Source: Candidatus Cryptobacteroides gallistercoris (GTDB taxonomy: Bacteria > Bacteroidota > Bacteroidia > Bacteroidales > UBA932). Taken from it: a DNA stretch of 64,000 nt. The notes beneath the pieces are model-generated. The model saw only the letters and a list, made by a program, of their open reading frames with translations, was not told the origin of the DNA and did not search any database. A program made the position numbers and the translations under genes. Each line of letters begins with the position of its first letter. The stretch's first letter is position 1. Positions 1,096 to 35,410 of this stretch are shown here, in pieces. The DNA is taken from assembly GCA_017694835.1 (NCBI GenBank), contig JADIMJ010000065.1, positions 1 to 64,000 on the forward strand, in the 5' to 3' direction.

Positions 1096-1221
1096 AAAAT
1101 ATTGTCCAAGCCCTTTCCGTCTATAATGATCGTAGCTCTTGCGAAATTTTGAAACAATTTACAACTTTGCGTATATTGGATGCAGACAGGTGATTTATTG
1201 AAACAACAACATATCCACGGA

Positions 1222-3678
1222 ATGAAAATTTTATCGACTTTATTGGCCCTTGCCCTCATGGCAGGCTACACCGCGGCTGCGGATGCAGAAAATACAGAAG
1301 ATGCAGGACGCAACACTCCAAGGCCGAATTATGAGCTCGCGGAAAGATTCTCCCAGAAGAAGATTTCGCAGATGGTATTCTCCACGAAGGTGACTCCCTA
1401 CTGGTTCAGGGACTCGGACAAGTTCTGGTATGAATGGAAGACTCCGGAAGGCACACAATATTACATAGTGGACGCAAAAAGCGGGAAAAAGCAGGCTGTG
1501 TTCGACATGGAAAAGCTTGCCATGCAGATTACACAAATCGTCAGGGATCCGTTTGACGCTCAGCATCTGCCCATCGCCGCACTTGAGCTGAAGGACGACA
1601 GGACATTTGCGTTCAGAATCAAGAGCTCTGTTCCGGAGACAGACTCCGCCCGCATAGAAAGATTCGGAAAGAAAAAGACATATTCATTTGAATATGACAT
1701 AGCATCAGGCCGGCTGACCGACATTACGGGAAATGAAGAGGAAGACATGTACCCGGCATGGGCGAATGTTTCCCCTGACGGGCAGATAGGGATTTTCGCC
1801 AAAAACGCCGACCTGTACTGGATGGATGCCGAGAATCTGGCAAAGGCGGCAAAGGATGAGAAGGACAGCACGCTTGTCGAGCATAGGATTACTTCCGGCG
1901 GCACTGCCGAATTCGGCTGGGGAGGCGACAGCTACATGGGCTGGACGGAGCAGGACACCACGGCAAGGGTATTCCCCTATTATCTCGTATGGTCTCCGGA
2001 CTCAAGGCATTTTGCAGCGATGAAATACGACATGAGCCCGGTAAAGGAATTCTGGGTCATCAATTCCCTCAGCAATCCGCGCCCTACCCTCGAGACATAC
2101 AAGTACCAGATGCCGGGGGAACCGGGACCGAAGGAATATCTCTATGTCTTTGAGACTGAAGGAATGACAGGGAGTCAGGTAAAGATAAATGCATTCAAGG
2201 ACCAGTCGACGGACTTCGAGACAATGCCGTACATGGACAGGGATGACTATGAGGATTTCATCTCGCGCAAATGGCTCGGAGACAATGACGGCTTCTACAT
2301 CCTCCGCCAGAGCAGGGACCTGAAGCGGCTGGACATCTGCCGCGTGGACATCGGGGCTGACTCTACAAGGACCGTCATCTCAGAAAGGATGAACACCTAT
2401 GTGGAATACAGGCCGCTGAGACTCGTGAACGGGGGACAGCAGATGATCCACTGGTCGGAGCGCAACGGCTGGGCCAATCTATATCTCTACAACGCTGACG
2501 GGACACTGGCCAATCCAATAGCCGAAGGGGCATTCCATGTCGAGGAAATCCTTGCAGTCAACGAAGACGAGAATTATGTGATATTCAGCGCCTGCGGATA
2601 CAACAGGGACGAGAATCCGTATCAGATGCATACATTCCGCGCCGGTCTTGACGGCAGCGGACTCAGGCAGATTGACATGGAAGACATGGATGTGAAGGCC
2701 TATGCAAGAGACAACGGGAAATATATTGTCTGCAACTATTCCCGCGTGGATGCCGTCCCGGCTGCGGCTCTGTACGGAAGCACTGGAAGAAAGATTGCCG
2801 ACCTGGAAAAAGCCGACCTTTCAAAGCTTTTCGAGGCAGGATACAGACTCCCGGAAAGGTTCACAGTAAAGGCAGCCGACGGAGTGACGGACCTCTACGG
2901 AGTGATGTACAAGCCGTTCGACTTCGATTCAACAAAGGTATATCCGATCATCGAATATGTATACCCGGGGCCTCAGATAGAAGCCAACAACATCTCCTGG
3001 AGCGCCGGGATGACCCGTACCGACAGGCTGGCGCAGATGGGATTCATCGTGATTACGGTCGGGAACAGGGGCGGCCATCCGAACCGCTCAAAATGGTATC
3101 ACAACTACGGCTACGGGAATCTCCGCGACTACGGCCTTGAAGACCAGAAGACAGCCGTGCAGAGGCTGGCGGCCAGATATCCTTGGATAGACGGGACCAG
3201 AGTAGGCATCCACGGGCATTCGGGCGGAGGCTTCATGTCCACTGCGGCAATCCTCAAATATCCGGATTTCTACACTGCCGCCGTCTCATGCGCGGGGAAT
3301 CATGACAACAGCATCTACAACCGCTGGTGGAGCGAACAGCACCACGGGATACTGGAGAAAATCACCGAAACGGGAGACACGACATTTGTCTATAAGATAG
3401 ACACCAATCCGGAAATAGCCTCCAACCTCAAGGGACACCTCCTGCTTGTGCACGGGGACATTGACAACAATGTGCATCCGGCAAACACAATCCGGGTCGT
3501 CAATGCCCTTATACGCGCCAACAAGAGGTTTGACCTGCTCCTGCTGCCCGGACAGAGGCACGGGTTCGGGGACATGAACGAATATTTCTTCTGGAGAATG
3601 GCCGACTGGTTCTGCGAGCACCTCCTCGGGGAAAGCCAGTCAGACAGGGTCGACATTATCCAGCTTAACAACGACTGA
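1222..3678 (+). CDS. S9B dipeptidyl-peptidase IV-type serine peptidase
   Basis: This 818-residue exported enzyme (start at 1222, because MKILSTLLALALMAGYTAAA is a signal peptide) has an N-terminal DPP-IV beta-propeller region of about 500 residues, with the motif YYLVWSPDSRHFA, and a C-terminal alpha/beta hydrolase. The catalytic triad is visible: Ser667 in GHSGGG, Asp748 in HGDIDNNVHP and His780 in GQRHGFG. The family removes dipeptides, usually Xaa-Pro, from peptide N-termini in the periplasm or on the cell surface. The nucleophile motif is GHSGGG rather than the GWSYGG of classical DPP-IV, so proline specificity is not certain. The methyltransferase-like gene follows after 2 bases and is probably co-transcribed. 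Confidence 0.88.
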   Translation: MKILSTLLALALMAGYTAAADAENTEDAGRNTPRPNYELAERFSQKKISQMVFSTKVTPYWFRDSDKFWYEWKTPEGTQYYIVDAKSGKKQAVFDMEKLAMQITQIVRDPFDAQHLPIAALELKDDRTFAFRIKSSVPETDSARIERFGKKKTYSFEYDIASGRLTDITGNEEEDMYPAWANVSPDGQIGIFAKNADLYWMDAENLAKAAKDEKDSTLVEHRITSGGTAEFGWGGDSYMGWTEQDTTARVFPYYLVWSPDSRHFAAMKYDMSPVKEFWVINSLSNPRPTLETYKYQMPGEPGPKEYLYVFETEGMTGSQVKINAFKDQSTDFETMPYMDRDDYEDFISRKWLGDNDGFYILRQSRDLKRLDICRVDIGADSTRTVISERMNTYVEYRPLRLVNGGQQMIHWSERNGWANLYLYNADGTLANPIAEGAFHVEEILAVNEDENYVIFSACGYNRDENPYQMHTFRAGLDGSGLRQIDMEDMDVKAYARDNGKYIVCNYSRVDAVPAAALYGSTGRKIADLEKADLSKLFEAGYRLPERFTVKAADGVTDLYGVMYKPFDFDSTKVYPIIEYVYPGPQIEANNISWSAGMTRTDRLAQMGFIVITVGNRGGHPNRSKWYHNYGYGNLRDYGLEDQKTAVQRLAARYPWIDGTRVGIHGHSGGGFMSTAAILKYPDFYTAAVSCAGNHDNSIYNRWWSEQHHGILEKITETGDTTFVYKIDTNPEIASNLKGHLLLVHGDIDNNVHPANTIRVVNALIRANKRFDLLLLPGQRHGFGDMNEYFFWRMADWFCEHLLGESQSDRVDIIQLNND

Positions 3679-18871: not shown

Positions 18872-19303
18872 TTACTCAAGAGCCTTCCTGAGCCTGGCCT
18901 CGGCCGCCTCGGCCTTCGCACGCCGCTTGTCCCTGGCTTTCTGCTGCTTTGCAGCGCCGCCCTTGAGATATTCATCCCACTGGTCCGGGGTAAAAATCTT
19001 CCTGAACGACTGGTCTATCGCCTCCATCCATTTGTCCTGCACTGCAATATAAATTGAAGTGTTTGAGACCTTCGACTCCCGGAGTGCCTTCATCTCATCA
19101 TCCATGGCACGATAGTCATGCTTCAGCGTGGAATCGACATAGAAGACCTGCCCTCCGTCAAGTTCCAGCAATGACTGAAGCCGGTCGGCCTCCTGCTCTG
19201 CAATGGCTTCAATATCCGGAGGTTCCGGTTCCTGGGCGGCTGCACGGAATGACACCGAGGCGGCAATAAGCGCCAACGGCAGTATTTTAAGCACCTTGTT
19301 CAT
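18872..19303 (-). CDS. Small exported helical protein, function unknown
   Basis: The product is 143 residues from the ATG at 19303, starting with a signal peptide (KVLKILPLALIAASVSFRAAAQ). The mature protein is helical and charged, with FYVDSTLKHDYRAMDDEMKALRESK and FTPDQWDEYLKGGAAKQQ. The pattern recalls small periplasmic LTxxQ/Spy-like helical proteins, but I cannot make a firm family call. A run of Lys, Arg and Ala ends it. It heads the operon with the nitroreductase and pheS genes. Confidence 0.6.
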   Translation of the reverse strand: MNKVLKILPLALIAASVSFRAAAQEPEPPDIEAIAEQEADRLQSLLELDGGQVFYVDSTLKHDYRAMDDEMKALRESKVSNTSIYIAVQDKWMEAIDQSFRKIFTPDQWDEYLKGGAAKQQKARDKRRAKAEAAEARLRKALE

Positions 19304-19325
19304 TTCACATCTGTTTCGCAAACTG

Positions 19326-21105: not shown

Positions 21106-21236
21106 CTTATTGTCATTTAATATGGACAGCAAAAGTAGACAATTTTCTCAAAATACCTAAATATGGCTATGCCGGTGAAAATAATACCAACATATTGCTA
21201 TGGACAAGGGAGAGTTTACGGAATACTTTTGCAGCG

Positions 21237-24203
21237 ATGAAAAAAATGATACTGACATATATGGCTGTCTTCCTTATGCCTCTGGCAGGCATAGCCCGTA
21301 CATATACTTTCTCCGGCATGGTTCTGGACAGGAGAAGCGGGGAGCCGGTGGAATTCGCCACAATAGTCCTGAAAGTATCCGGACAATGGGCTGTAGCCGG
21401 AGAAGACGGCAGATTCAGCATCAGCAATATCCCGGAAGGGAAAAATATCCTGTCGATATCATGTCTCGGCTATGCGGAATCCGCTGAGGAAATCACCCTT
21501 ACAAAAGACATCAGCGGCTACACCGCATATCTTGACGAAGACAATCTCGCCCTTGAAAGCGTCGTCGTCACGGCACAGTCAAACGAGAGCAGCGCAACCA
21601 CGAGCCGGATAATAGACAGGACAGCCCTCGACCATGTGCAGGCCATGAATGTGGCCGACATTTCCGCCCTTCTGCCAGGAGGAGTCACGACCAATCCGTC
21701 ACTGGTGTCAGAGCAGAGATTCAGCATCAGGACAGGGGGAGCGGCGGAAGCCGGCAACCCGACCTTCGGGACGGCCGTGGAAGTGGACGGGGTCAGACTG
21801 TCCAACAACGGCAGTTTCGAAGACCCTGCCGGAGTCGCCACCAACAATATATCATCCAGCGACATAGAATCCGTGGAAGTCATTTCGGGAGTACCCTCGG
21901 CAGAATACGGGGACATCAATTCCGGAATAGTGAAAATCAATACCCGCAAAGGAGTCACTCCCTATATGGTAACTCTCGCGAGCAATCCCAGGACAAAACA
22001 GATTTCCGCAAGCAAAGGATTTTCACTCGGGACAGACAGGCGGGGAAGGACAAGAGGAACCGTAAACGCAAACATTGAATATACCAGAGCCATCTCCGAC
22101 CAGATGTCCCCATATACTTCATATGACAGAAAACAGCTGTCGCTGACATGGAGCAACACATTTTCATCCGGAGCACTGGCGACAACCCCGCTGAGGGTTT
22201 CAGTCTCGGCTGCCGGCAATCTCGGAGGCTATGACTCCAAGGCCGACCCGGATGCATTCATCGGCACATACACAAAACGGCATGACAACATGCTCCGGGG
22301 AAATTTCACCCTGGACTGGCTGCTGAACAAGGCATGGATAACCAATCTGGAAATAAAAGGCTCTGCAGTATACAATGACAGGCAGACGGAGGAAAGGAAA
22401 AACTACTCCAGCGCAGCCGCCACAGTGGCCCTCCACGGAAGAGAGGAAGGGTATTTCGTGGCACAGAAATACGATACGAATCCCGATGCGGAGGCAATAC
22501 TGATTCCGGCAGGATACAGGTACAATACAATGTGCGTGGACGACAGGCCCATGAACTACAGCCTTTCCGTCAAGGCCGGATGGAACAGGACATTCGGGAA
22601 TGTCAACAACAAGGTAAAGCTCGGGGCAGAATGGACCGGAGACAAAAATTTCGGGAAAGGCCAGTATTCAGAAGACATGTCCACGGCCCCGGATTTCAGG
22701 GAATGGGACTACAGTCTGATTCCGTTCATGAACAACCTTGCCGTATATCTTGAAGAGAACATCCATATCCCTATCGGCGGCACTCTGCTCAACCTCAGGG
22801 CCGGAATCAGAGGAGAAGCCACCTTCATAAAAGGGTCTGCCTACGGAAGCACTTCAAGCTGGTCTCCGCGCCTCAATGCCAAATATGACATCATCCGGGA
22901 AGAGAATGCCGGGGATTCGTTCCTCAGAAGACTGTCGGTGCGCGCCGGATGGGGAACGGCGGTCAAGCTCCCGTCCTTCTCTATCCTTTATCCGACCCCC
23001 TCCTACAGGGACATCAGGGTATTCAACCCGACGACCTCCTCCGACGGAGAGGCATATTATGCATATTATATCAAGCCGAGAATCATTGAATACAACGGAG
23101 ACCTCCGCTGGCAGAAAAGCAGGCAGGCGGAAATAGGCATCGACGCAGACCTCGGCATCGTCAAGGTCTCGCTGTCCGGATATTACAGCAGGATTCTTGA
23201 CTCGTACTACACTGCCTCGGACTATGAACGGTTCAGCTACAACTATACCGACCAGAAAGATCTCGCATCCTGCACTATTCCCGAAGAAGACAGGGTGTTC
23301 TCGATTGACAGGGTGACAGGTGTTGTCACCGTACATGATGCGACCGGCACGATGGAGGCGCAGGAGCTCGGGCACAGTGTCCGGAACTCATTCATCACAA
23401 GCTATTACGCAGCCAACAGCATCTCCCCTGTCACAAGGTACGGAGTGGAATGGGTCCTTGACTTCAAGAAAATCCGGGCAATAAACACGACTGTGCGCAT
23501 TGACGGAAATTTCTACGTATACAAAGCCACGGACATGAATCTCATGCCGTCATATCCGTCAAATACACTGTCGGCAGACGGCAGCCCGTTCAAATATGTG
23601 GGATATTACATCGGGGGAGACAATATATCCAACGGGCGCGAGACCCGGACAGTGAACACCAACCTTACTGTCACCACACACATCCCGAAAATCAGGCTGG
23701 TCCTCTCCCTGAGGCTTGAAGCCACCCTGCACGACTACAGCAGGTATCTGAGCGACTCAGACGGAATGGTCCGCTCGTATGTCAGGGAAGGACAGCAGGA
23801 CTATTTCCCCCTTGAAGGAGCAGGCGACATCTATTCAGGACGGTACTACACAGTGATGTACCCCAAATATTATGTCAGCTTTGACAATCCGGAGCCGAGG
23901 GATTTCCTTGAAGATTTCAGGTGGGCTGCAGAAAACGACCCGCAGATGTACACGGACCTGTCCAGGCTTGTGGTCCGCTCCAACCTCCTGTACTTCTTCG
24001 CCAAGGACTACATTTCACCGCATTTTTCCGCGAACTTCAGCGTCACGAAGGAAATCGGGGACATAGCTTCCCTATCGGTCTATGTCAACAATTTCTTCAA
24101 CAATTACGGACAAGTATATTCGACGAGGTCAGGACAGTATTCTTCAGTACGGGGCTTCATCCCGTCCTTCTTCTACGGGCTGACAGTCAGGCTGAAATTC
24201 TGA
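21237..24203 (+). CDS. TonB-dependent outer-membrane receptor with carboxypeptidase-like domain
   Basis: The product is 988 residues from the ATG at 21237, which begins a signal peptide (KKMILTYMAVFLMPLAGIA). Residues about 20-105 form the CarboxypepD-reg-like domain (FSGMVLDRRSGEPVEFATIVL). A plug follows with a TonB-receptor pattern (VADISALLPGGVTTNPS, SVEVISGVPSAEYGDINSGIVKINTRKG). The rest is a 22-strand-type barrel ending in a C-terminal Phe (GLTVRLKF). There is no SusD partner; instead DUF4876 and DUF6850 genes follow. It should import a ligand with TonB energy, and the ligand is unknown. Confidence 0.9.
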   Translation: MKKMILTYMAVFLMPLAGIARTYTFSGMVLDRRSGEPVEFATIVLKVSGQWAVAGEDGRFSISNIPEGKNILSISCLGYAESAEEITLTKDISGYTAYLDEDNLALESVVVTAQSNESSATTSRIIDRTALDHVQAMNVADISALLPGGVTTNPSLVSEQRFSIRTGGAAEAGNPTFGTAVEVDGVRLSNNGSFEDPAGVATNNISSSDIESVEVISGVPSAEYGDINSGIVKINTRKGVTPYMVTLASNPRTKQISASKGFSLGTDRRGRTRGTVNANIEYTRAISDQMSPYTSYDRKQLSLTWSNTFSSGALATTPLRVSVSAAGNLGGYDSKADPDAFIGTYTKRHDNMLRGNFTLDWLLNKAWITNLEIKGSAVYNDRQTEERKNYSSAAATVALHGREEGYFVAQKYDTNPDAEAILIPAGYRYNTMCVDDRPMNYSLSVKAGWNRTFGNVNNKVKLGAEWTGDKNFGKGQYSEDMSTAPDFREWDYSLIPFMNNLAVYLEENIHIPIGGTLLNLRAGIRGEATFIKGSAYGSTSSWSPRLNAKYDIIREENAGDSFLRRLSVRAGWGTAVKLPSFSILYPTPSYRDIRVFNPTTSSDGEAYYAYYIKPRIIEYNGDLRWQKSRQAEIGIDADLGIVKVSLSGYYSRILDSYYTASDYERFSYNYTDQKDLASCTIPEEDRVFSIDRVTGVVTVHDATGTMEAQELGHSVRNSFITSYYAANSISPVTRYGVEWVLDFKKIRAINTTVRIDGNFYVYKATDMNLMPSYPSNTLSADGSPFKYVGYYIGGDNISNGRETRTVNTNLTVTTHIPKIRLVLSLRLEATLHDYSRYLSDSDGMVRSYVREGQQDYFPLEGAGDIYSGRYYTVMYPKYYVSFDNPEPRDFLEDFRWAAENDPQMYTDLSRLVVRSNLLYFFAKDYISPHFSANFSVTKEIGDIASLSVYVNNFFNNYGQVYSTRSGQYSSVRGFIPSFFYGLTVRLKF

Positions 24204-24258
24204 GGGGATGACACAAAGAGAAAGGAATGAAATTATAACAGATAAAACCAGTGATATC

Positions 24259-25572
24259 ATGAAAAAATTCATCATCATCGCGCTTGCGGCCGCCTTTGCC
24301 GCCGCTGCATGCGAAAAGACACCGACCCGGGACCTGCCTGTCCAGGTATCGGTCAGTCTGACTTATGAAAACGGGCCGTTTGCGACCGAAGGCATTACAG
24401 TAAGTCTTGCAGACCTCAACGGAAGCGCAAGCTACCAGGCGCAGACCGATGCTTCCGGCACAGCCTTATTTTCAGTGCTCCCGGGCATCTATTCGGCATC
24501 GGCGACATATTCTGTCAGCGAAGGCTCGGACCTTTTTGTCTACAACGGAGTCAATTCAAATGTAGCGGTATCCGCAACAGGGGAGAACTCATTTGAACTC
24601 AACCTTGTGAAATCGGAGTCAAACCAGATTATCATCAAGGAACTCTATATCGGAGGATGCCCAAAGGACGACGGCAGCGGATATTATCATTATGACAAGT
24701 ATGTCATTCTCTATAACAATTCAGCCGAAGAAGCAACTCTGACGACAGACTTCTGCATCGGAATGTGCAGTCCGGCCAACTCAAATGCCACAAACAAATA
24801 CTATGTGGGAGGAGTCCTCTCCTATACTGACTGGATTCCGGCATACTGCTCGGTATGGTGGTTCCAGGAGCCGGTGGCAATCGCCCCTTATTCACAGGTA
24901 GTCGTAGCCCTCAACGGGGCCATCGACCACACACAGACCTACAGCCAGTCGGTAGACCTGTCCAGCCCGGAATATTATGTGACTTACGCTCCGGAAATCT
25001 ACACCAATGTCAACTATCATCCGGCTCCGTCAGCAGGCATACCGACATCCCACTATCTCCAGACATACAAATACAATGCTTTCGGAAATGCCTGGGTGCT
25101 GTCCAACTCATCGCCTGCATTCTTCGTGTTCTCGACCGAGGGCAGGACTCCGTCCGATTTCTCCCAGGACCCGGACGTAATATCGGAGGTCAATGCTGCG
25201 GCAACTGACGCAATGGTCCCTGTCGAGTGGGTAATCGACGGCATCGAAGTGTTCCGTGCCACATACGACGCCCAGAACCAGAAGAGGCTTCTGCCTTCCG
25301 TGGACGCCGGCCATGCTACATTCACCTCAGAGCTCGGATACACCCTGTACCGGAATGTAGACAAGGAGGCCACCGAGGCTCTGCCTGAAAATGAAGGTCT
25401 TCTCGTATACAACTATGCAGGAGGCACCGAAAGCGAGGCAGAAGGGTCTACCGACCCGTCCGGAATCGACGCCGAGGCATCCATCGCCAACGGGGCGCAC
25501 ATCATCTACAAGGACACCAACAATTCCTCAAACGACTTCCACCAGAGAAGGACGGCCTCGCTGAGAAAATGA
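24259..25572 (+). CDS. DUF4876 surface lipoprotein
   Basis: The start at 24259 gives 437 residues with a lipobox AAAAC (Cys18). An N-terminal immunoglobulin/CNA-B-like segment (about 28-130) is followed by the DUF4876 body, opening IIIKELYIGGCPKDDGSGYYHYDKYVILYNNS and ending SNDFHQRRTASLRK. The family occurs in Bacteroidota next to TonB receptors, and I infer it is a surface ligand-binding partner of the receptor, taking the place SusD has elsewhere. It overlaps the DUF6850 gene by four bases. Confidence 0.8.
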   Translation: MKKFIIIALAAAFAAAACEKTPTRDLPVQVSVSLTYENGPFATEGITVSLADLNGSASYQAQTDASGTALFSVLPGIYSASATYSVSEGSDLFVYNGVNSNVAVSATGENSFELNLVKSESNQIIIKELYIGGCPKDDGSGYYHYDKYVILYNNSAEEATLTTDFCIGMCSPANSNATNKYYVGGVLSYTDWIPAYCSVWWFQEPVAIAPYSQVVVALNGAIDHTQTYSQSVDLSSPEYYVTYAPEIYTNVNYHPAPSAGIPTSHYLQTYKYNAFGNAWVLSNSSPAFFVFSTEGRTPSDFSQDPDVISEVNAAATDAMVPVEWVIDGIEVFRATYDAQNQKRLLPSVDAGHATFTSELGYTLYRNVDKEATEALPENEGLLVYNYAGGTESEAEGSTDPSGIDAEASIANGAHIIYKDTNNSSNDFHQRRTASLRK

Positions 25573-27179
25573 GGGCCCCGACTGTAATTAATCTAATCTT
25601 TCCTGTCCTGATTCTGATGCTGCTTCAGCACTCTGCATCGGGACAGGAATGGCGCGTGTATGACTTCAGGTTTGTCAGGGACATTTCGCCATGGCTCACA
25701 TCAGAGAACTATGCCGGACTCGGGACTCTTCCGACAGACAGGATTGCTGCAGCCGAAGTATTCTTCAACAAATCCGACGGCGGGCTCGCTGGAATTGAGG
25801 AATCCGATGACTCCTGGCAGGCCGGAGCATACACAGAATCAACTATCCGGCTTTCCGACAGGATTGCCTTCTGCGGCAAGCTTTCATACACCAATTTCAG
25901 GGGGAAGGACATGGGCGGACCGGTGCTGATGGACCCCTCATACAATCCTGTCAATTTCCTTGAAAGCACGGATACTACCGCCGGAATGAAGACAAAGGAA
26001 CTGTATCTGCTTCGGGGCGGGATATCATATTCATTCTCTGAAAAATGGAGCATCGGAGCAGGCATAAGCTACGAAGCCGGGAACTATGCAAAGCGCAAGG
26101 ACCCGCGGTTCCTGAATTCATGGATGGACATGGATGTCTCGGCCGGTGTCCGGTTCGCTCCTTCAGACAGATTTGCAGCGGGACTTGACCTCGAATACAG
26201 GAAAACCGTGGAATCTGTCTACGGAGACATCTACGGGACAAGCAACAACATGTATTACATCCTTGTGGACTACGGGGGATATTTCGGATACAGGGAACAG
26301 TTTGACGGTGACAACGGAATGGTGTCGACATCAGGCGCCAGGCCGATGTTCAATTCATTCATGGGAGGCTCTCTCCAGCTGGATTTCAAAGGCAGGGGCG
26401 GACTGAGGTTCTTCAATGAATTCACATACCTCCGGAGAAGCGGCTACTATGGCAACAGAGGCAGCGGGAGTGTAGTGCGTACGGAGCATTCCGGCAATAC
26501 AGTCTCCTGGAGAGGCATTATCCTGTTCGGAGGCAACGCCGCCATGCACAGGCTCACTCTCTCGGGAGACTTCAGCACCCTCGACAATTTCCGGAACAAC
26601 TATTCCGAATCCACAGTGCCGGGGGAAAGCACCGAGGTAGTCTATCACGGCCGGACCCGGACTCTTGACAGATCCGATTTTTCGGCAGAGGCAATCTACC
26701 ATGGATACTTCGGCGTCAGGGACAATTATCCTGAATGGGAGGCCGGGGCCGGAATACATGCCGAAGGCCGATACTTTACGGCTTCGTCCTACCCGTTCTT
26801 CCGCAGACAGGATGTGACAGCCTTCAGATGTGGGATTTTCATCAAAAAGAATTTCCTCAAAGGAAAAAACATCATCTCCGCAGGAGCAGAAGCCGGATTC
26901 ATGAAAGGCTTCGGCACAGCGGCAGAAGACGGGGAATATGTGTCCAGCACATCCGCTTCACCGTGGTCAGGCGACTCTTATCTCTTGCGGGACTTTGAAT
27001 TCCGCACGGCCGCAAGGCTCGGAGGCGGGCTTTCGCTCAGATACACACGGATTCTGAGGAACAACCTCGGAATCTACGCCGGCGTCAGGGACAGGCTGGA
27101 CCATACGCTGGCACCGGCCGCAGCCCTGCAGTCCGGATTCCGGAATGTGCTGGAAATCTCGGCTGGATGTACATTCTGA
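25569..27179 (+). CDS. DUF6850-type outer-membrane beta-barrel protein
   Basis: The 536-residue protein has a signal peptide (LIFPVLILMLLQHSASG) and is rich in alternating beta-strand patterns, ending in the aromatic C-terminus ISAGCTF. The family (recalled as DUF6850) accompanies DUF4876 lipoproteins and TonB receptors. The start ATGA overlaps the stop of the DUF4876 gene, and the M16 peptidase gene follows. It is presumably an outer-membrane part of the same uptake complex. I cannot say whether it is a second channel or a structural partner. Confidence 0.75.
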   Translation: MRAPTVINLIFPVLILMLLQHSASGQEWRVYDFRFVRDISPWLTSENYAGLGTLPTDRIAAAEVFFNKSDGGLAGIEESDDSWQAGAYTESTIRLSDRIAFCGKLSYTNFRGKDMGGPVLMDPSYNPVNFLESTDTTAGMKTKELYLLRGGISYSFSEKWSIGAGISYEAGNYAKRKDPRFLNSWMDMDVSAGVRFAPSDRFAAGLDLEYRKTVESVYGDIYGTSNNMYYILVDYGGYFGYREQFDGDNGMVSTSGARPMFNSFMGGSLQLDFKGRGGLRFFNEFTYLRRSGYYGNRGSGSVVRTEHSGNTVSWRGIILFGGNAAMHRLTLSGDFSTLDNFRNNYSESTVPGESTEVVYHGRTRTLDRSDFSAEAIYHGYFGVRDNYPEWEAGAGIHAEGRYFTASSYPFFRRQDVTAFRCGIFIKKNFLKGKNIISAGAEAGFMKGFGTAAEDGEYVSSTSASPWSGDSYLLRDFEFRTAARLGGGLSLRYTRILRNNLGIYAGVRDRLDHTLAPAAALQSGFRNVLEISAGCTF

Positions 27180-27205
27180 ACATTATAACAATATCGACCA
27201 AATAT

Positions 27206-30088
27206 ATGAAAAATCATTTAAGAAGAATTTGCAGGACAATGCTTGTCCTGCTGACAATGGGAATAACAAGCCTGGCGGCGGAGAGCCGGACACAGACAAG
27301 GTATCTGCATACGGAGGAAGCCGGGAAAATCTGCACGGCAGACACCATAGCCTGCGACCCCCAGGTCATAAAGGGCCGGCTTGACAACGGGCTGACATAC
27401 TATATCAGACACAACGCCAATCCGGCAGGATGTGCGGATTTCTACATTGTGCACAATGTGGGGGCCCTTCAGGAAGAGGATTCTCAGAACGGCCTGGCGC
27501 ATTTCCTCGAACACATGGCCTTCAACGGCACGAAACATTTCCCGGACAAGGGGATTCTTGAATTTCTCGCCCGCGAGGGTGTGCGGTTCGGCTACAATGT
27601 GAACGCGTACACTACCCGAACAGAGACGGTGTACAACCTCTCAAGCGTACCTCTGGTCCGGGAAAGCTTCGTAGACTCAGTACTGCTCGTTCTGCACGAC
27701 TGGTCGGGAGATATCTCCTGCGACCAGGATGCCATTGATGCGGAAAGAGGCGTCATCCGGGAAGAATGGAGAAGGCGGGACAATTCCAAGACCCGGATGT
27801 TCGAAAGCCAGTCCGCCCTTATCTACAGCGGGGCAAAACAGGCTGAAAGGAATGTGATAGGCACCCTTGAGGTAATCGACGGTTTTGAAAGGCATGAAAT
27901 CCTTGACTTCTACCACAAATGGTACCGTCCTGACCTGCAAGCCATAATCATCGTCGGAGACTTCGATGCCGGGGAAATGGAAAAGAAAGTAATCAGCCGA
28001 TTCTCAGACATCCCGTCGGCAGTAAATCCCGTCCCGAAAGAAGAGTGCCACATTCCGGCACTGGATAATCCGATATTCACTCATGTCACCGACCCGGACA
28101 TCCGCTTCCTTGCCTTCAAGGCGATGCACAGGCAGCCTTATCCATCCGTTGAGGTCCGCCGCACAGAAGGATTCATAAAGGACAGGCTCATCAGGTCCAT
28201 TATAACCGAGGCATTTTCCGCAAGGCTCAGTGAGGCGGTCAAGGCTGCCGGCTGTCCGGTAAAGCGGGCGGTGCTTGTCACCTATCCGTCCGGAACCGAC
28301 TTCTATGTCTCACAGTTCACCTTCCTTCCGAAAGAAGAAGACGGGCTGGATGAAGTCATCGGATTCTACCGCAATGAGATGGAACGATTCCTCAGATACG
28401 GCATTTCGGAAGAGGAGTTTGAGAACGCGAGATTCAAGGTATTCAAAAAGGAGCATCTGGGAATGCCGGTATTTGAACAGAATGTCACCCACAGGCAGCT
28501 TGTCACCTCTTATGTGGCCAATTTCCTGACAGGAATGCCGTATGCGCATCCTGCCGAAATGCAGGAACTCACCGGAGAAATCCTTTCAGGCATCTCATAC
28601 GGGGAAATCCCTGCTTATATCGGCAGGATGTTCGCCGACAGCGAAAAGATATATTTCTGCAATTCCGAAACAGGGAAAGAAGACATGCTTCCAACCGTGG
28701 AAAGGATGGAGGAACTCCTGCTCAGCCCGCTGCCTTCGGCGCCGGAGCCGCATTTCCTTGACTTTGACGACATAGACACTTCGGCGGCCGTCACTCCGGG
28801 GACAATAGTGAAAGTCTCCCGGGAAAAGGGAGGAGAGACATGGATACTCAGCAACGGGGCCAGAGTCTGCTGGACTCCGTCGGCACCGGTCAAGGCTTAC
28901 AGGCATCTTGACGCCGTACTGGACTTCGGGACAGGATACGGGGTATTCCCTGCCGGACAGGAAAAGATGTCAAAGATAGCCCTGTCATATATTTCCCGGA
29001 ATGCGGGATTCAGAGATTCGGATTTCGCCGATATCCGCAACAGTCCAGCCTGCTTCGGTGCAAATGTTTCATTCAGGGCATCCCAGGAACACGGATATGT
29101 GCTGATGAATTCGGACAGCGCCCATGTTGAGAACGGTTTCCGCCAACTGTATCTGCATCTCACAGAGCCGTACTTTTCCGACTGCGCGAAGCTCGAGGAC
29201 TTCAAGGACGGCAGCATAGACAACCTCAGAAAGGCTGACCCTGACAAAAGAAGGTTCAACCGGGCCATGCGGGAAGCCCGATACGGGGGACATCCGTGGA
29301 TGGAGACGGCTGATTCCGGTGACTTCAGGGCGCTTGACATGGCTTTCATAGAAGAGACATTCCGCAGGGAATACACGGACTTCAGCAACATGACGGCTTA
29401 TATTGCCAGCGACCTGGACAAGGAGACAATAATGAAACTCGTCTGCCGCTACCTGGCCTCACTGGGCAACGGAAGCAGCAGCCCGCAGTCCGGAATCCGT
29501 CCGGCAGAAGCCTGCTACAAAGGCAATGTTGTCATTGACAGCACATATTCGCTCAAGACCGTACCAAAGTCTTCTGTTGAAATCTCTTTCCGCGGCAAAG
29601 CAGCAATGTCCCCGGAAAACATGGCAGCATTTGACATCGTTGACTACATAATGTCCGCCCGTTGTCTTGACAAAGTAAGGGAAGAGCGCGGAGGGACCTA
29701 CTCGATCTCGTTCAGTACGGAATTCGAACCTGAAGACCGCGGCAGATATGAATCTTCTGTGGCGTTCGAGACCCGTCCTGAACTCTCCGAAATGCTCATC
29801 TCCGACATCCTGACCGAACTTGAGTCCATGGCAGCCTCCGGCCCGACAACCGAAGAGATGGACAACGCCGGGAAATACCTCGTCAAGGCCCGCGCCGAAA
29901 GGGCCAAGGCCCGGGAAAATTCACTTTCCTCCAAGAACCGCGACAGGATGACCCTTGCGGAAAGCGGCTTCGACCCGAACTTTGACTACGGCTCCGCTGT
30001 CGGAAAAGTCAGCGCCGGAGACATAAGGAAACTTGTCAGGAAGATACTCCGGGGGGACAGGATGACTGTAATCTACAGTGAAGACTGA
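27206..30088 (+). CDS. M16-family zinc metallopeptidase (PqqL/insulinase type)
   Basis: The start at 27206 gives 960 residues with a signal peptide. The zinc motif HxxEH is His99-Phe-Leu-Glu102-His103, with the third ligand Glu180 in DAERGVIREEW, 77 residues on, as in pitrilysin. A second, inactive M16 half occupies the C-terminal part (about 480-955), as in full-length family members. The enzyme would be periplasmic and cut peptides of limited size. Lying last in the TonB receptor operon, it may process an imported peptide. A REP-like hairpin starts 6 bases after the stop. Confidence 0.9.
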   Translation: MKNHLRRICRTMLVLLTMGITSLAAESRTQTRYLHTEEAGKICTADTIACDPQVIKGRLDNGLTYYIRHNANPAGCADFYIVHNVGALQEEDSQNGLAHFLEHMAFNGTKHFPDKGILEFLAREGVRFGYNVNAYTTRTETVYNLSSVPLVRESFVDSVLLVLHDWSGDISCDQDAIDAERGVIREEWRRRDNSKTRMFESQSALIYSGAKQAERNVIGTLEVIDGFERHEILDFYHKWYRPDLQAIIIVGDFDAGEMEKKVISRFSDIPSAVNPVPKEECHIPALDNPIFTHVTDPDIRFLAFKAMHRQPYPSVEVRRTEGFIKDRLIRSIITEAFSARLSEAVKAAGCPVKRAVLVTYPSGTDFYVSQFTFLPKEEDGLDEVIGFYRNEMERFLRYGISEEEFENARFKVFKKEHLGMPVFEQNVTHRQLVTSYVANFLTGMPYAHPAEMQELTGEILSGISYGEIPAYIGRMFADSEKIYFCNSETGKEDMLPTVERMEELLLSPLPSAPEPHFLDFDDIDTSAAVTPGTIVKVSREKGGETWILSNGARVCWTPSAPVKAYRHLDAVLDFGTGYGVFPAGQEKMSKIALSYISRNAGFRDSDFADIRNSPACFGANVSFRASQEHGYVLMNSDSAHVENGFRQLYLHLTEPYFSDCAKLEDFKDGSIDNLRKADPDKRRFNRAMREARYGGHPWMETADSGDFRALDMAFIEETFRREYTDFSNMTAYIASDLDKETIMKLVCRYLASLGNGSSSPQSGIRPAEACYKGNVVIDSTYSLKTVPKSSVEISFRGKAAMSPENMAAFDIVDYIMSARCLDKVREERGGTYSISFSTEFEPEDRGRYESSVAFETRPELSEMLISDILTELESMAASGPTTEEMDNAGKYLVKARAERAKARENSLSSKNRDRMTLAESGFDPNFDYGSAVGKVSAGDIRKLVRKILRGDRMTVIYSED

Positions 30089-31012: not shown

Positions 31013-32686
31013 TTATTCGGAATATGGTTTCCAGGACACTTTCAAAATATCTGTCATATCCGTACTATTCCCTGCTCTGCCACTTAAACAATCATTTATA
31101 ATCTGAATTTTAAATTCTCCTGACTCATTAATATTAAATTCTTCAGTATATATTGTGGCTCTCTCTAAATCCTCTTTTGCCACCGTAATCTTATTTGTTT
31201 GCAAAATTTCATCAGTTGAATTTAAAATATTTACTGTCAGAGATAGGCCCTTTGTCAAACTCGCCGGCATTGCTGATATGCCGTAATTTACCATCAACAT
31301 ATCGCAACCACCGGAAAGTATTGGCGATGTCAATTTCCCTACTTGCGAAATATTGCCACTCAAAGTAATGACTGCTGCCGGAATATCTTCAGCATATGTC
31401 TCAGGATCCTTAAATCTGACATTCTCTGCTATCCAACCCGCATCTGATGTTCTTGTCACTGTAGTTGTCGGACTTAAACCTTCATCGTCTGTAAAGGTGC
31501 TAAAATCTGCCTCTTTCCATTCTACTTCAACTCCGCTTGCAGCATTCTGAACGATTACAAATGTCTTGGCCGGGTCTCCGGACTTGTAATTAATGCTGAT
31601 TGTTGAAGACCTCTGCGAAGTCTCGGTATTCTCTGCCACAGAGAATGTAAGCACATCCTGACGGAGAGCCTTTGTTGCAGGAACCAATGAAATCCAGGCC
31701 CTGTCATCTTCAGGAATGACCACATCATATTCAAGGTTGGTATTGACGGTCACTGACACATTTCCACCCTTTGCAGGGACCGGCTGCACATCATAGACCA
31801 CTTCAAGCTGTCCGGCTGCAAAGGAAAGTATCTTTCCTGATGTCACCCCGTCCCCGTTTACTGCAACGACATAGATGTCGGCATCCACGACCGGGTCAGG
31901 GGCCGTGATGTTCAATGTACCTTCAGATGATGAGGTCTTTGTGACTGATACGGAATAGCCGGCCACAGGAATAGCCGTAATCTTGGTGGCATCATCGGCA
32001 GCTGTTATGGTATATGGTATCTGCGCTGTCTCTCCGGCTGCTATGCCGACCTCCGTATTCTCTATATTGAGGGCGAAGCTCTGGACCTTAGGAATAGTAA
32101 TGGTACTGTCATCATAGAGAGTGAACACAACACTGTCTCCTTTGTCCTCAACGCCCTTGATGGTACCGATTCCCTCTGAGGCCACATCCCCGCATTCAAT
32201 CCATTTCTCCCCGTCCGTAGAGAACCAGAACTTACCGTCCTCTATCTTTATCTGAGGCACGCCATACTGTGCAGTGGCAGGTATCTTCTGATTATTCCCG
32301 TCAAGCAGGAACTCCCCGTTGAGAGTCCAGTAATATATTCCGTCCGTGTCTTTCTGGACCCCGATTACCGGGGAATCCCCGTCCTTCCCGTTTGCTCCGT
32401 TATATACCGTGACAGTCCCTGAGTTTGCAAAGACTATCTCCCATCCGGCATCTCCCGGAAGTTTGTTCACGGACACAATCCTGTCCTGATTTTCAAGGGC
32501 ATCGATTGCAGTCACAAGGGTCCCGAGATTGGAGGTAAGTTCATTCACCAGTCTCTCGAGTTCAGCCACCCTGTTCTCCAGGTCATCTACCCTGCCTGTA
32601 ATTCCGGAATCATCATATTTCTGACATCCGACAAAAACAGACAAAGAGAGCAGGAATATTCCTATTATTTTCAGTGTTATTTTCAT
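31013..32686 (-). CDS. DUF4988/BACON-type surface lipoprotein
   Basis: The 557-residue lipoprotein (lipobox FVGC, Cys21) begins with a short coiled coil (GRVDDLENRVAELERLVNEL) and a DUF4988 region (about 25-170) with repeated GDSPVIGVQKDTDGIYYWTL-type strands. A BACON-like module spans about 295-375 (VPAKGGNVSVTVNTNLEYDVVIP...WISLVPA). The C-terminal 180 residues are a separate beta domain. Such proteins are glycan-binding or adhesive surface lipoproteins. It is the last gene of the PUL, after an intercistronic hairpin. The 3' third is AT-richer. Confidence 0.75.
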   Translation of the reverse strand: MKITLKIIGIFLLSLSVFVGCQKYDDSGITGRVDDLENRVAELERLVNELTSNLGTLVTAIDALENQDRIVSVNKLPGDAGWEIVFANSGTVTVYNGANGKDGDSPVIGVQKDTDGIYYWTLNGEFLLDGNNQKIPATAQYGVPQIKIEDGKFWFSTDGEKWIECGDVASEGIGTIKGVEDKGDSVVFTLYDDSTITIPKVQSFALNIENTEVGIAAGETAQIPYTITAADDATKITAIPVAGYSVSVTKTSSSEGTLNITAPDPVVDADIYVVAVNGDGVTSGKILSFAAGQLEVVYDVQPVPAKGGNVSVTVNTNLEYDVVIPEDDRAWISLVPATKALRQDVLTFSVAENTETSQRSSTISINYKSGDPAKTFVIVQNAASGVEVEWKEADFSTFTDDEGLSPTTTVTRTSDAGWIAENVRFKDPETYAEDIPAAVITLSGNISQVGKLTSPILSGGCDMLMVNYGISAMPASLTKGLSLTVNILNSTDEILQTNKITVAKEDLERATIYTEEFNINESGEFKIQIINDCLSGRAGNSTDMTDILKVSWKPYSE

Positions 32687-32699
32687 ATCAGTTAATTTT

Positions 32700-32732
32700 C
32701 CAGATTCCGGCTCCGGACAAGCCGGAGTCTGG
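32700..32732. promoter_or_regulatory. Intercistronic hairpin before the DUF4988 gene
   Basis: CCAGA (32700-32704) pairs with TCTGG (32728-32732), and inside CTCCGG (32711-32716) pairs with CCGGAG (32722-32727), with a six-base bulge on one side. No T run follows on the reverse strand. It may stabilise upstream mRNA ends or partly terminate, reducing expression of the last gene. Confidence 0.55.
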
Positions 32733-32753
32733 AATCATATTACAATAGTTAAA

Positions 32754-33767
32754 CTATTCAGCTGTAGCCATATCGTATGTAATGGTATAGCCTGCTGGAA
32801 CTGAACCTGCATCCCTTGACCTGTTTCCATTGTCGCAAGTAACTTCAGCTTCGAAATATGCCCCGTCAGACAGAGCCTGAAGTTCAGGGAGCGGATCGTT
32901 GTCAGAACGCATTCTGAGATTAAAACACATCATAGCGCCATAGCCTTCCTCTAAGGCTTTTTCAGCCCAATACCTGACTAATGATGACGGATAATCGGTT
33001 CCAAGGTTCAAAGCAACTGGCGCAAATTCATTGGCATTAATACCATTAATATTGCATGATGTATTATACATACCAAATGATCCATGGTAGACATAATCAA
33101 TGCATGCAGCAGCCTCCGAATTTATAGTATGAGTATTCCCCCAATCAAAAACTGTAATAAGTTTGTCGGACGGCATAAGTTCATGCAGTTTTATAATAAT
33201 TCGGCTATATGAAGTATTGTTCACACTACCATACGGATAATCAGCATATTCGTCATCAAAGCCGATGCCGTCAAGACCATATTTTTCAACGGCATAAGCG
33301 AGAATAGTCGCAAACTGATCAGCCTGTGTATTTGTCATATTGGCCACACCTATTTCCTGCCAGTCACCCAGTACGGTAAGTAATACTTTTATGTCTTTTG
33401 CCTGAAGTGGCTTCACATAAGTATCTACTCCTCCATTTTCAAGAACAGGAGTAAGTTTGTCATTGAGGTAGAGCGTTGGACGGACTTCCCCTTCTTCTGT
33501 GGTCTCTTTGTGAATATTCGAGGCAAAAAGTTCAACAATGTCAAAAAATGGCAATCCATCAACTTCATAATCTCCTGCGTTCAATGGGTTTACATCATTA
33601 GTTTCCACATATACAACTGCACAAGGAGATTTATCACCTAATGCTTTAGTTATAGGAGAATTCTGAAGCAGATCTGCTTCTTTGACCTGAGGGTTCTCTA
33701 TCCTGTTGCAGGAGAGAACACCAACGAGAGCGGCAACTAATGCTGCTAATACGAAAACCTTTTTCAT
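32754..33767 (-). CDS. GH18 endo-beta-N-acetylglucosaminidase lipoprotein
   Basis: The 337-residue lipoprotein (lipobox VLSC, Cys20) is a GH18 barrel. The catalytic motif DGxxxDxE is LDGIGFDDEYADYP, with Asp166, Asp171 and the proton donor Glu173. That phrase is very close to the LDGVxFDDEY motif of EndoH and EndoF1 type enzymes, which cut the GlcNAc-GlcNAc core of N-glycans. The SusC/SusD genes upstream on the same strand fit release of glycans at the cell surface. The gene is clearly AT-richer than the upstream part of the PUL (22 of 60 G+C in the sample 33001-33060). Confidence 0.88.
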   Translation of the reverse strand: MKKVFVLAALVAALVGVLSCNRIENPQVKEADLLQNSPITKALGDKSPCAVVYVETNDVNPLNAGDYEVDGLPFFDIVELFASNIHKETTEEGEVRPTLYLNDKLTPVLENGGVDTYVKPLQAKDIKVLLTVLGDWQEIGVANMTNTQADQFATILAYAVEKYGLDGIGFDDEYADYPYGSVNNTSYSRIIIKLHELMPSDKLITVFDWGNTHTINSEAAACIDYVYHGSFGMYNTSCNINGINANEFAPVALNLGTDYPSSLVRYWAEKALEEGYGAMMCFNLRMRSDNDPLPELQALSDGAYFEAEVTCDNGNRSRDAGSVPAGYTITYDMATAE

Positions 33768-33795
33768 GATGTTAAAAATTTAAAATTTAATTAAT

Positions 33796-33813
33796 ATATG
33801 CCAGATGGCATAT
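33796..33813. promoter_or_regulatory. Perfect short palindrome between PUL genes
   Basis: ATATGCCA (33796-33803), GA, TGGCATAT (33806-33813). It lies in the 74-base gap upstream of the GH18 endoglycosidase gene. The loop is too small for a stable hairpin, so it may be a protein-binding dyad. The function is unknown. Confidence 0.5.
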
Positions 33814-33841
33814 TGTTCTATTTCATTTTACTTAAGCTGTT

Positions 33842-35410
33842 TTACCAATCCTTTGTCCATTTGTTATATTGACTGCTTCCCTCTTTATTATCCAATCTGG
33901 CAGGGTAAATTATGCATCCGGGATCATCAAACCATGCAGAAAGAATATATCCGGGATTATTACATGCTCCTGATTCATATTGGTCCTGAATTTTTGAGCG
34001 GATATCGTAATACACCGATATGCCGTTGGGATTATATCCGTTGGCTACCCATTCCGTTACGACATCTGCCTTGGCATAGGTATAATTTGTATAAATGGTG
34101 GCATGGATACAGCCGTACCGCTTCGGTGAAAGCCCGGCGACTGGCTGGCGGGGATGGAGGTCCGACACAGGAGGGATTCCCTGATGCCACGGGTCGACAA
34201 TCTGGACAGGTTCCGCGCCGTCGCAGTAGCCCGACCATGCATAGTCGAGATATTCTCCCGGGGCTATGCCGCCCATGGATTCAGTGTCATGGAAATATTC
34301 AGTCGGCTCCTCATAGTCGGTAAGGGTCAGCAGCTTGTACTCTCCGAGTGCTTCTCGGAGGGCCTTGATGAGTTTCGGATATGATGTCCTGTTCATTTCA
34401 GGGAAACCGTTCTCAACAGCCCTGTCATATCCGGAATTCCTGTCCCAGAGGTTGATGCCGTTGATCCCGTATGTGTCTACGAATCTCTTGACGGAAGACA
34501 CGAAATCGGCTATCTGCTCGTCAGTGAAATTACAGAAGCCTATTCCCTGTCCTCCCCCTTCAATGCAGACACAGACCTTGCGGCCGCTCTCCTGCACAGG
34601 GAGGACTCTTTCGGTCGAGTGCTCCAGGACATATTTCAGGTCTGCACTCGGCTGGATGAAAACCTTTCCGGTCGCACTGTCATAACCTACGGATGCCATC
34701 CTGAGATTCACTATATTTCCCAATCCTTTGTATTCATATACTCCGGACGAAATCCGTTCCTGGAGTATCATGTCGTTCGCCAGCCGGGGGTCAAAAGCCG
34801 AAGTGTTGATATAGAATACGGTGAACATATCCTCTCCGGTGTAGAGTTCGTAGCCGTCCGGGTCCGTATATGGGGTACGGACGGTGACATCAACGAATAC
34901 GGTGCTGTCGGCAAGTTCTCCGAGGACTGATGTCCCGACGACCGGAAGGAGGTAGCGGCCGGGGGCCAGAACATTGTCGAGAGGATTCTTTGCAAAGAGC
35001 CTGAGCTGCTTCGTTGCCGACTGGGCCGTACCCTCGGGAATGTCAACGGTGCTGCCGTTGATGAATTTGTAGAACGGGGCAGGAAGAAGCGTGTACTCCA
35101 CTCCTGTATTCCGGGAGTATTCCTCCACCATTTCCTCATCCCCTGCTTTCAGCTGTATGGTCCGGGAAACGGACAGAGGGGCATTTGAACGGGCGAAAAG
35201 CCCGGCCGTAGTGAAGCCGTCGCCTTCGTTCAGGGTAACAGTCACCATATTGTCCGGAGACTGCTCCGCCCGGAGGGAAACGGCCGGACCGGCATTGACA
35301 GCCGCCATGTCCGGCTGCAGGTCTATGTACTCATGATATTCAAGGTCCGTGCATGAAGCGAGAACTGCGGACATCACAGACAGAAGAATGAATGGATTTC
35401 CTGGTTTCAT
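33842..35410 (-). CDS. DUF1735 plus degenerate GH18-fold glycan-binding lipoprotein
   Basis: The 522-residue lipoprotein (Cys20 in LASC) has an N-terminal DUF1735 domain (about 25-175) and a GH18-like barrel (about 195-510). Aligned to the active neighbour, the catalytic site reads INGINLWDRNSGY: Asp166 becomes Asn317, Asp171 becomes Trp322 and the acid Glu173 becomes Arg324. It therefore cannot hydrolyse by the GH18 mechanism and is most likely a surface glycan-binding protein. Its start is 4 bases after the stop of the LamG lipoprotein gene. Confidence 0.82.
   Translation of the reverse strand: MKPGNPFILLSVMSAVLASCTDLEYHEYIDLQPDMAAVNAGPAVSLRAEQSPDNMVTVTLNEGDGFTTAGLFARSNAPLSVSRTIQLKAGDEEMVEEYSRNTGVEYTLLPAPFYKFINGSTVDIPEGTAQSATKQLRLFAKNPLDNVLAPGRYLLPVVGTSVLGELADSTVFVDVTVRTPYTDPDGYELYTGEDMFTVFYINTSAFDPRLANDMILQERISSGVYEYKGLGNIVNLRMASVGYDSATGKVFIQPSADLKYVLEHSTERVLPVQESGRKVCVCIEGGGQGIGFCNFTDEQIADFVSSVKRFVDTYGINGINLWDRNSGYDRAVENGFPEMNRTSYPKLIKALREALGEYKLLTLTDYEEPTEYFHDTESMGGIAPGEYLDYAWSGYCDGAEPVQIVDPWHQGIPPVSDLHPRQPVAGLSPKRYGCIHATIYTNYTYAKADVVTEWVANGYNPNGISVYYDIRSKIQDQYESGACNNPGYILSAWFDDPGCIIYPARLDNKEGSSQYNKWTKDW

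Follow-up and report, generated by a model that had tools for sequence, protein, structure and literature searches.

What does a TonB-dependent receptor without a SusD partner bring into the cell when its operon ends in a zinc protease? The question is raised by four co-oriented plus-strand genes in the window, the 64,000-nucleotide stretch of DNA analysed here. It comes from a Candidatus Cryptobacteroides (Bacteroidales) and forms the start of contig 41 of a genome that measures 2.02 Mb and is 89% complete. A sequence-only reading had proposed uptake of peptides, with the M16 enzyme processing them as FusC processes ferredoxin. Open reading frames and Pfam matches define the following genes:

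19366 to ~21105, minus strand: peptidase C69 (dipeptidase family) with a signal peptide (Pfam PF03577, 4.5e-79)
21237-24203, plus strand: TonB-dependent receptor with an N-terminal CarbopepD_reg_2 domain and without a SusD partner (ORF, Pfam)
24259-25572, plus strand: DUF4876 lipoprotein, which may bind substrate at the surface or act as a lid (Pfam 8.9e-21; lipobox)
25569-27179, plus strand: DUF6850, predicted outer-membrane beta-barrel of about 18 strands (Pfam 7.4e-50; AlphaFold2 model)
27167-30088, plus strand: two-halved M16 zinc metallopeptidase with a signal peptide and complete catalytic residues (Pfam)

The layout is the one that the sequence-only reading had described. ORF coordinates and Pfam matches for all four products place the receptor, DUF4876, DUF6850 and M16 genes in a one-strand operon with small gaps or overlaps, the DUF4876 and DUF6850 genes overlapping by 4 bp and the DUF6850 and M16 genes by 13 bp. 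The C69 gene is indeed divergent from the operon, on the minus strand, its start (~21105) and that of the receptor lying 131 bp apart. The absence of SusD was likewise confirmed, both beside the operon and, as a SusD/RagB match in Pfam, among the operon proteins. The nearest named relative at the locus is Candidatus Cryptobacteroides avicola, with a DUF4876 identity of 97%. Directly after C69 lies a gene for a 149-aa protein with no Pfam match (18872-19321, minus strand), a homologue of which stays beside C69 in several relatives, for example at loci L034, L038, L048 and L085.

The M16 product matches the Pfam families M16_C (5.6e-30) and M16 (2.2e-21). The catalytically complete site that had been claimed for it (HxxEH and Glu180) holds: the motif reads H112-F-L-E115-H116, and E193 in long-ORF numbering provides the third zinc ligand, its number becoming Glu180 on a count from the ATG at 27206. 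H112, E115, H116, E193 and the C-half residues R838/Y845 are identical in 30/30 related M16 proteins examined. Its PDB matches are headed by 9ldy (6.5e-100), then PqqL (2.9e-63) and FusC (7e-35), the last two ranking ahead of pitrilysin and insulin-degrading enzyme (IDE). Judged by these sequence matches, the enzyme would be of the FusC/PqqL kind with all catalytic residues kept. PqqL is an iron-regulated periplasmic protease and FusC cleaves ferredoxin (PMC6793856).

In Pfam the receptor shows a TonB barrel (3.6e-17), a Plug (3.7e-10) and CarbopepD_reg_2 (PF13715, 5e-16). In a profile comparison XusA (9gbc, 3.8e-16) is its closest relative of known structure, the match covering the N-terminal domain and plug only. 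Neither FusA nor YddB was among the PDB matches to the receptor profile at E <= 0.01, and on this negative search we rejected the receptor as a member of the FusA family. The DUF4876 ORF opens at 24208 and the lipobox start is at 24259. The lipobox Cys is invariant in 49 relatives and is directly followed in most of them by acidic residues, a feature of Bacteroidetes lipoprotein surface-export signals; the proposal of a lipoprotein is thereby borne out. Its model (pLDDT 92.5) is matched in Foldseek by BT_1938 (4q1z, E 1.5e-21), whereas XusB is absent among the listed fold matches, and DUF4876 is not XusB by sequence either. From its place in the operon, DUF4876 would occupy the position of XusB/BtuG-type lids and is probably exposed at the surface. 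The AlphaFold2 model of DUF6850, made from a 66-sequence alignment (pLDDT 92.2), agrees with the barrel that had been suggested, with about 18 long strands and a short N-terminal helical part. Foldseek returned generic outer-membrane barrels only (TonB receptors, FadL and AlgE, at a query-normalised TM of ~0.3-0.4), and for the modelled barrel we found neither a solved relative by sequence nor a close solved fold.

To place the operon among its relatives, 150 genomes of the same family were searched for DUF4876 and DUF6850 and 80 loci were fetched; a second set of 80 loci from named records was obtained by scanning public genomes with an alignment of window-type DUF4876. DUF4876 was present in 82/150 and DUF6850 in 86/150 of the same-family genomes, almost always adjacent. 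The order receptor-DUF4876-DUF6850, with which the window agrees in having the three genes in the same order on one strand, was seen in ~72/80 same-family loci and in nearly all of the 80 named-record loci. M16 lies immediately downstream of DUF6850 in 30 of the 80 named-record loci, across several genera, and 14 of the 80 continue from M16 to a polyferredoxin-like (4Fe-4S/HMA) membrane protein and then to an S46 (DPP7-like) dipeptidyl-peptidase. C69 often heads the operon in relatives, co-directional with the receptor and directly upstream of it. About 25 of the 80 named-record loci, in Bacteroides, Tannerella, Dysgonomonas, Phocaeicola and others, have an alternative ABC-type cassette made up of an ABC ATPase, a small protein (a possible permease), DUF4857, a weakly CcmE/OB-like protein and PepSY-TM. 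The two cassettes are alternatives that almost never occur together: among 150 loci, 68 had M16/S46 only, 32 DUF4857 only, one both and 49 neither.

The claimed linkage of M16 to this module is real in the sense that M16 and other peptidases recur at related loci, far more often than by chance. Among 133 dereplicated loci, 40 had M16 no more than a few genes away from DUF4876 (4.0 expected from copy number) and 42 had S46 near it (1.9 expected), these being counts of related loci, each counted apart, and not of independent events. On the receptor tree the window belongs to a clade with good support, most of whose loci are of the peptidase type; the state of M16 changes 16 times and that of S46 20 times, with a tendency to change in step (6.4 same-way pairs vs 0.1 opposite, median p 0.03). 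In three Prevotella loci (L169, L181 and L184) the M16 gene is divergent, and since these loci sit inside the ABC-type clade of the tree, an independent recruitment of M16 is suggested there. The neighbourhood survey, which the sequence-only reading had proposed with peptidase-free loci as the outcome that would count against it, gave a divided answer: such loci are a feature of the wider family and not of the window's own clade. We rejected the idea that every DUF4876 locus includes a peptidase, as ABC/DUF4857, HEAT-repeat and bare loci exist.

Two further observations concern the neighbouring genes. The membrane protein between M16 and S46 (L123:15781-17799, L119:11908-13920 and 15 related ORFs) is ~670 aa long and combines NapH-like 4Fe-4S motifs, a 2[4Fe-4S] ferredoxin part, an HMA-like domain and an invariant CxGSS motif; the HMA domain exceeds the Pfam cut-off in the L123 copy. 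Another receptor-DUF4876-DUF6850 clade (L058-L077 and others) is flanked by pairs of HEAT-repeat proteins (~733 aa), as in B. theta BT1933-39.

A control element common to these promoters was sought next. The 8-mer AATACCTA occurs upstream of ABC-type receptors in 19/35 loci (0.7 expected) and is half of a palindrome, AATACC-N8-GGTATT, for which a spacing of 8 is strongly preferred. At least 10 of the 12 palindrome positions are present in 21/35 ABC-type receptor promoters as against 6/350 shuffles and 26/452 other intergenic regions, some of the latter being these promoters over again, taken from the side of the divergent gene. Many relatives of the window genome have the same box ahead of feoAB, at a distance of 56 to 90 bp. 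A matrix built from receptor promoters only recovered the box above the 99.9% null in 12/18 feoAB promoters (0.02 expected), and a matrix built from feoAB only placed 21180-21205 first and 21149-21174 second among the 127,950 window positions on both strands; both matrices were seeded with the palindrome, and what counts as independent evidence is that a matrix from one gene set works on the other. The scores of both window sites were reached in 0/3000 dinucleotide shuffles of the C69/receptor promoter region, and 0/3000 shuffles yielded a second site as good as operator 1 (21152-21171). AATACC-N8-GGTATT thus recurs as a putative operator in feoAB promoters (among loci L193-L212) and upstream of receptors at L131, L153, L168, L179, L187 and others. 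The elements of the window promoter region are:

21130..21137, minus strand: -7-like element TACTTTTG of the C69 promoter (read from the sequence)
21152..21171, plus strand: predicted iron operator 1, AATACCTAAATATGGCTATG, with a perfect left and a degenerate right half (feoAB-only matrix, rank 2)
21183..21202, plus strand: predicted iron operator 2, AATACCAACATATTGCTATG (feoAB-only matrix, rank 1)
21224..21231, plus strand: -7-like element TACTTTTG of the receptor promoter (read from the sequence)

Each operator site falls roughly where one of the two divergent promoters would have its -33 region, upstream of the TACTTTTG elements, which we take to be of the Bacteroidales TAnnTTTG -7 type. 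Iron control of the window operon is predicted from these operators and is likely; we do not put it higher because, among 54 receptor promoters of the peptidase type, only 7 to 8 have a box above the 99.9% null, most Cryptobacteroides orthologs of the window promoter keep the sites only partly, the right half-sites in the window are off consensus (GCTATG vs GGTATT), and the window genome's own feoAB promoter (L201, contig 12) has no clear box, unlike those of many relatives. Where C69 heads the operon, a box upstream of it was not convincing, and in the HEAT-repeat clade a good operator match (10 of 12 positions) was found in 0/20 loci. In Prevotella L169, L181 and L184 the box is located between the divergent M16 and receptor genes, and the copy at L184 (Prevotella sp. 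tc2-28) is perfect. Expression of the peptidase independently of the receptor, which the sequence-only reading had named as an outcome against it, is argued against by this arrangement of the three loci and by the gene overlap in the window. A genome-wide search with a degenerate IUPAC pattern of the box proved too unspecific (17 matches vs 5 for the reversed pattern) and was abandoned. A better match to the ABC-type matrix, at 3246-3271, sits inside an S9 peptidase gene and was taken as chance. The S9 gene itself (1180-3678, plus strand) is prolyl-oligopeptidase-like, of DPP-IV type by our reading of the sequence, and S9 peptidases recur near DUF4876 loci of other genomes (9 cases).

Fur-family genes were detected in 20/21 genomes tested, the window genome included, and DtxR-type repressors in none of the 21. 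We rejected a DtxR-family repressor as the reader of the box, and because no match to that family occurs in the 21 genomes a Fur-family protein is the more likely reader. In the literature searched we found no description of an AATACC-N8-GGTATT box for Bacteroidetes, and such an operator could serve as a guide in predicting which genes of gut Bacteroidales belong to the iron regulon. Two loci (L192:2868-6404 and a 1179-aa gene at L054) have a divergent gene for pyruvate:ferredoxin oxidoreductase on the other side of the receptor's box, so that this Fe-S enzyme, too, may be under iron control.

Published transcriptomes also connect these loci to iron. B. theta BT3625-33, which the ABC/PepSY-TM/DUF4857 cassette matches in gene content, is induced 37- to 128-fold without iron, and P. 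gingivalis PG1019-22, compared there with BT_1938-39, rises 21- to 215-fold under iron starvation (PMC10434189); a P. gingivalis DUF4876 gene changes strongly with hemin availability (PMC10470040). For the relatives in which iron induction was measured, no M16 cassette has been described. Together with the many loci that carry ABC/PepSY-TM/DUF4857 or HEAT-repeat genes instead, and with about half of the loci having neither M16 nor S46, these iron and heme responses speak against DUF4876/DUF6850 as a general mark of peptide uptake, as the sequence-only reading would have had it. That reading is partly supported, and we move it from peptides in general to iron; its analogy with ferredoxin import by Fus gains strength from the iron-type operator and from an M16 enzyme nearer to PqqL/FusC than to IDE or pitrilysin.

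How far does the analogy go? With FusA-FusC of Pectobacterium and YddB-PqqL of E. coli the operon has in common a TonB-dependent receptor encoded together with a two-halved periplasmic-type M16 protease, a link of the protease gene to the receptor gene (here in the same operon), and the relationship of the protease to PqqL/FusC with an intact active site; expression under iron limitation would be a further likeness, predicted here from the operator shared with feoAB. It differs in a receptor that is not detectably of the FusA family and in the added DUF4876 lipoprotein and DUF6850 barrel; genes for a TonB-like FusB or an inner-membrane FusD-like protein were not found next to the operon in the window, and Fus was described in Proteobacteria (PMC6793856), the window system being from Bacteroidales. 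XusABC of Bacteroides (BT_2063-2065) likewise joins a receptor with an N-terminal carboxypeptidase-like domain to a surface lipoprotein and is induced by iron starvation, and PepSY reductase-type genes occur in the sister cassette of the window type; the window operon, however, has DUF4876 as its lipoprotein (not XusB by sequence or among the listed fold matches), has DUF6850 and a protease in addition, and has no PepSY gene. The iron-starvation loci PG1019-22, BT3625-33 and BT1933-39 share the receptor and DUF4876, of which BT_1938 (4q1z) is the solved example, but an M16/S46 cassette has not been described for them. SusCD systems resemble the operon as lipoprotein-assisted TonB receptors of Bacteroidales and differ in having SusD. 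Because its M16 is of the FusC/PqqL kind but its receptor is not FusA-like and has XusA as nearest solved structure, the window system is Fus-like at the protease and Xus-like at the surface and, by the features tested, a member of neither. It would be an analogue of Fus/PqqL built on unrelated outer-membrane parts.

The reading we favour, at a little short of even confidence, is an outer-membrane uptake system controlled by iron starvation, in which an imported iron- or heme-bearing protein or peptide is cut by the periplasmic M16 enzyme. We prefer it because it joins the iron-type promoter, the surface lipoprotein with its TonB receptor and the periplasmic-type protease of the FusC/PqqL kind. 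The DUF4876 lipoprotein would capture the ligand, presumably a small protein or peptide carrying iron or heme, at the cell surface and hand it to the receptor, with the DUF6850 barrel assisting in the outer membrane. M16 would then cleave it in the periplasm and so release the metal, C69 (S46 in relatives) would trim the leftover peptides, and the 4Fe-4S/HMA protein of relatives may deal with electrons or metal. At sister loci the cargo would be a chelate, served by PepSY-TM and ABC proteins. Neither the 4Fe-4S/HMA protein nor DUF4857 has a credible match in the window genome (89% complete), which leaves the scheme without a step for bringing iron into the cytoplasm.

The main rival holds that the cargo is a chelate or heme at all loci and that the peptidases act elsewhere: receptor, DUF4876 and DUF6850 would take up a small xenosiderophore or heme in the manner of Xus, and the peptidases would clear peptides and envelope debris or cut a carrier protein, not the imported ligand. 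XusA as the nearest solved receptor, likewise with an N-terminal carboxypeptidase-like domain (PMC13142918), the PepSY-TM, ABC and DUF4857 genes that replace the peptidases in sister loci, and the predicted iron operator all suit it. We nevertheless consider it rather unlikely, as it leaves unexplained why three unrelated peptidase families (M16, S46 and C69) recur by the same core and why loci with M16/S46 almost never have the ABC set as well. Uptake of peptides as a source of amino acids, with iron incidental, would account for those three peptidases, one of them DPP7-like, as the needs of peptide catabolism; it is improbable in view of the promoter element common with feoAB, the induction of DUF4876 loci in two other genera when iron or heme is limiting, and the many same-core loci without a peptidase. 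Least probable by far is that M16 lies beside the conserved receptor module by chance. M16 genes are indeed common in the family, at about five per genome, and the window genome has others, but the coding overlap with DUF6850, the directly downstream position in several genera and the repeated changes of M16 and S46 on the receptor tree, which tend to go together, oppose it, and we rejected it on the locus survey and the counts against copy-number expectation.

If the favoured reading of iron-bearing polypeptide import is extended beyond the window, a wider proposal follows, which we advance more tentatively. Bacteroidota may have a route for importing proteins or peptides for iron that was assembled independently of Fus, in which a common iron-regulated module (receptor, DUF4876 lid and DUF6850 barrel) is fitted by cargo with an ABC/PepSY-TM cassette for chelates or a peptidase cassette (M16, S46 and C69 with the 4Fe-4S/HMA membrane protein) for polypeptides. 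No protease-associated DUF4876 system was found in the literature searched, and of the genes reported as iron-induced in Porphyromonas and Bacteroides, those of DUF4876 loci belong to the strongest responders. The alternation of cassettes behind one receptor module, together with the operator shared with feoAB, gives these loci a concrete cargo hypothesis and suggests that iron piracy through protein import and digestion, so far known from Proteobacteria, also occurs in Bacteroidales of the gut and rumen. Animal-gut MAGs contribute many of the related loci, and in such guts plant and host iron proteins are plentiful.

Downstream of the operon, on the minus strand, three genes (31013-35410) encode a DUF4988/BACON lipoprotein and two GH18/EndoS-like TIM-barrel proteins, one of them with a BT_3987-type N-terminal domain; this looks like an endo-beta-N-acetylglucosaminidase locus for N-glycans.
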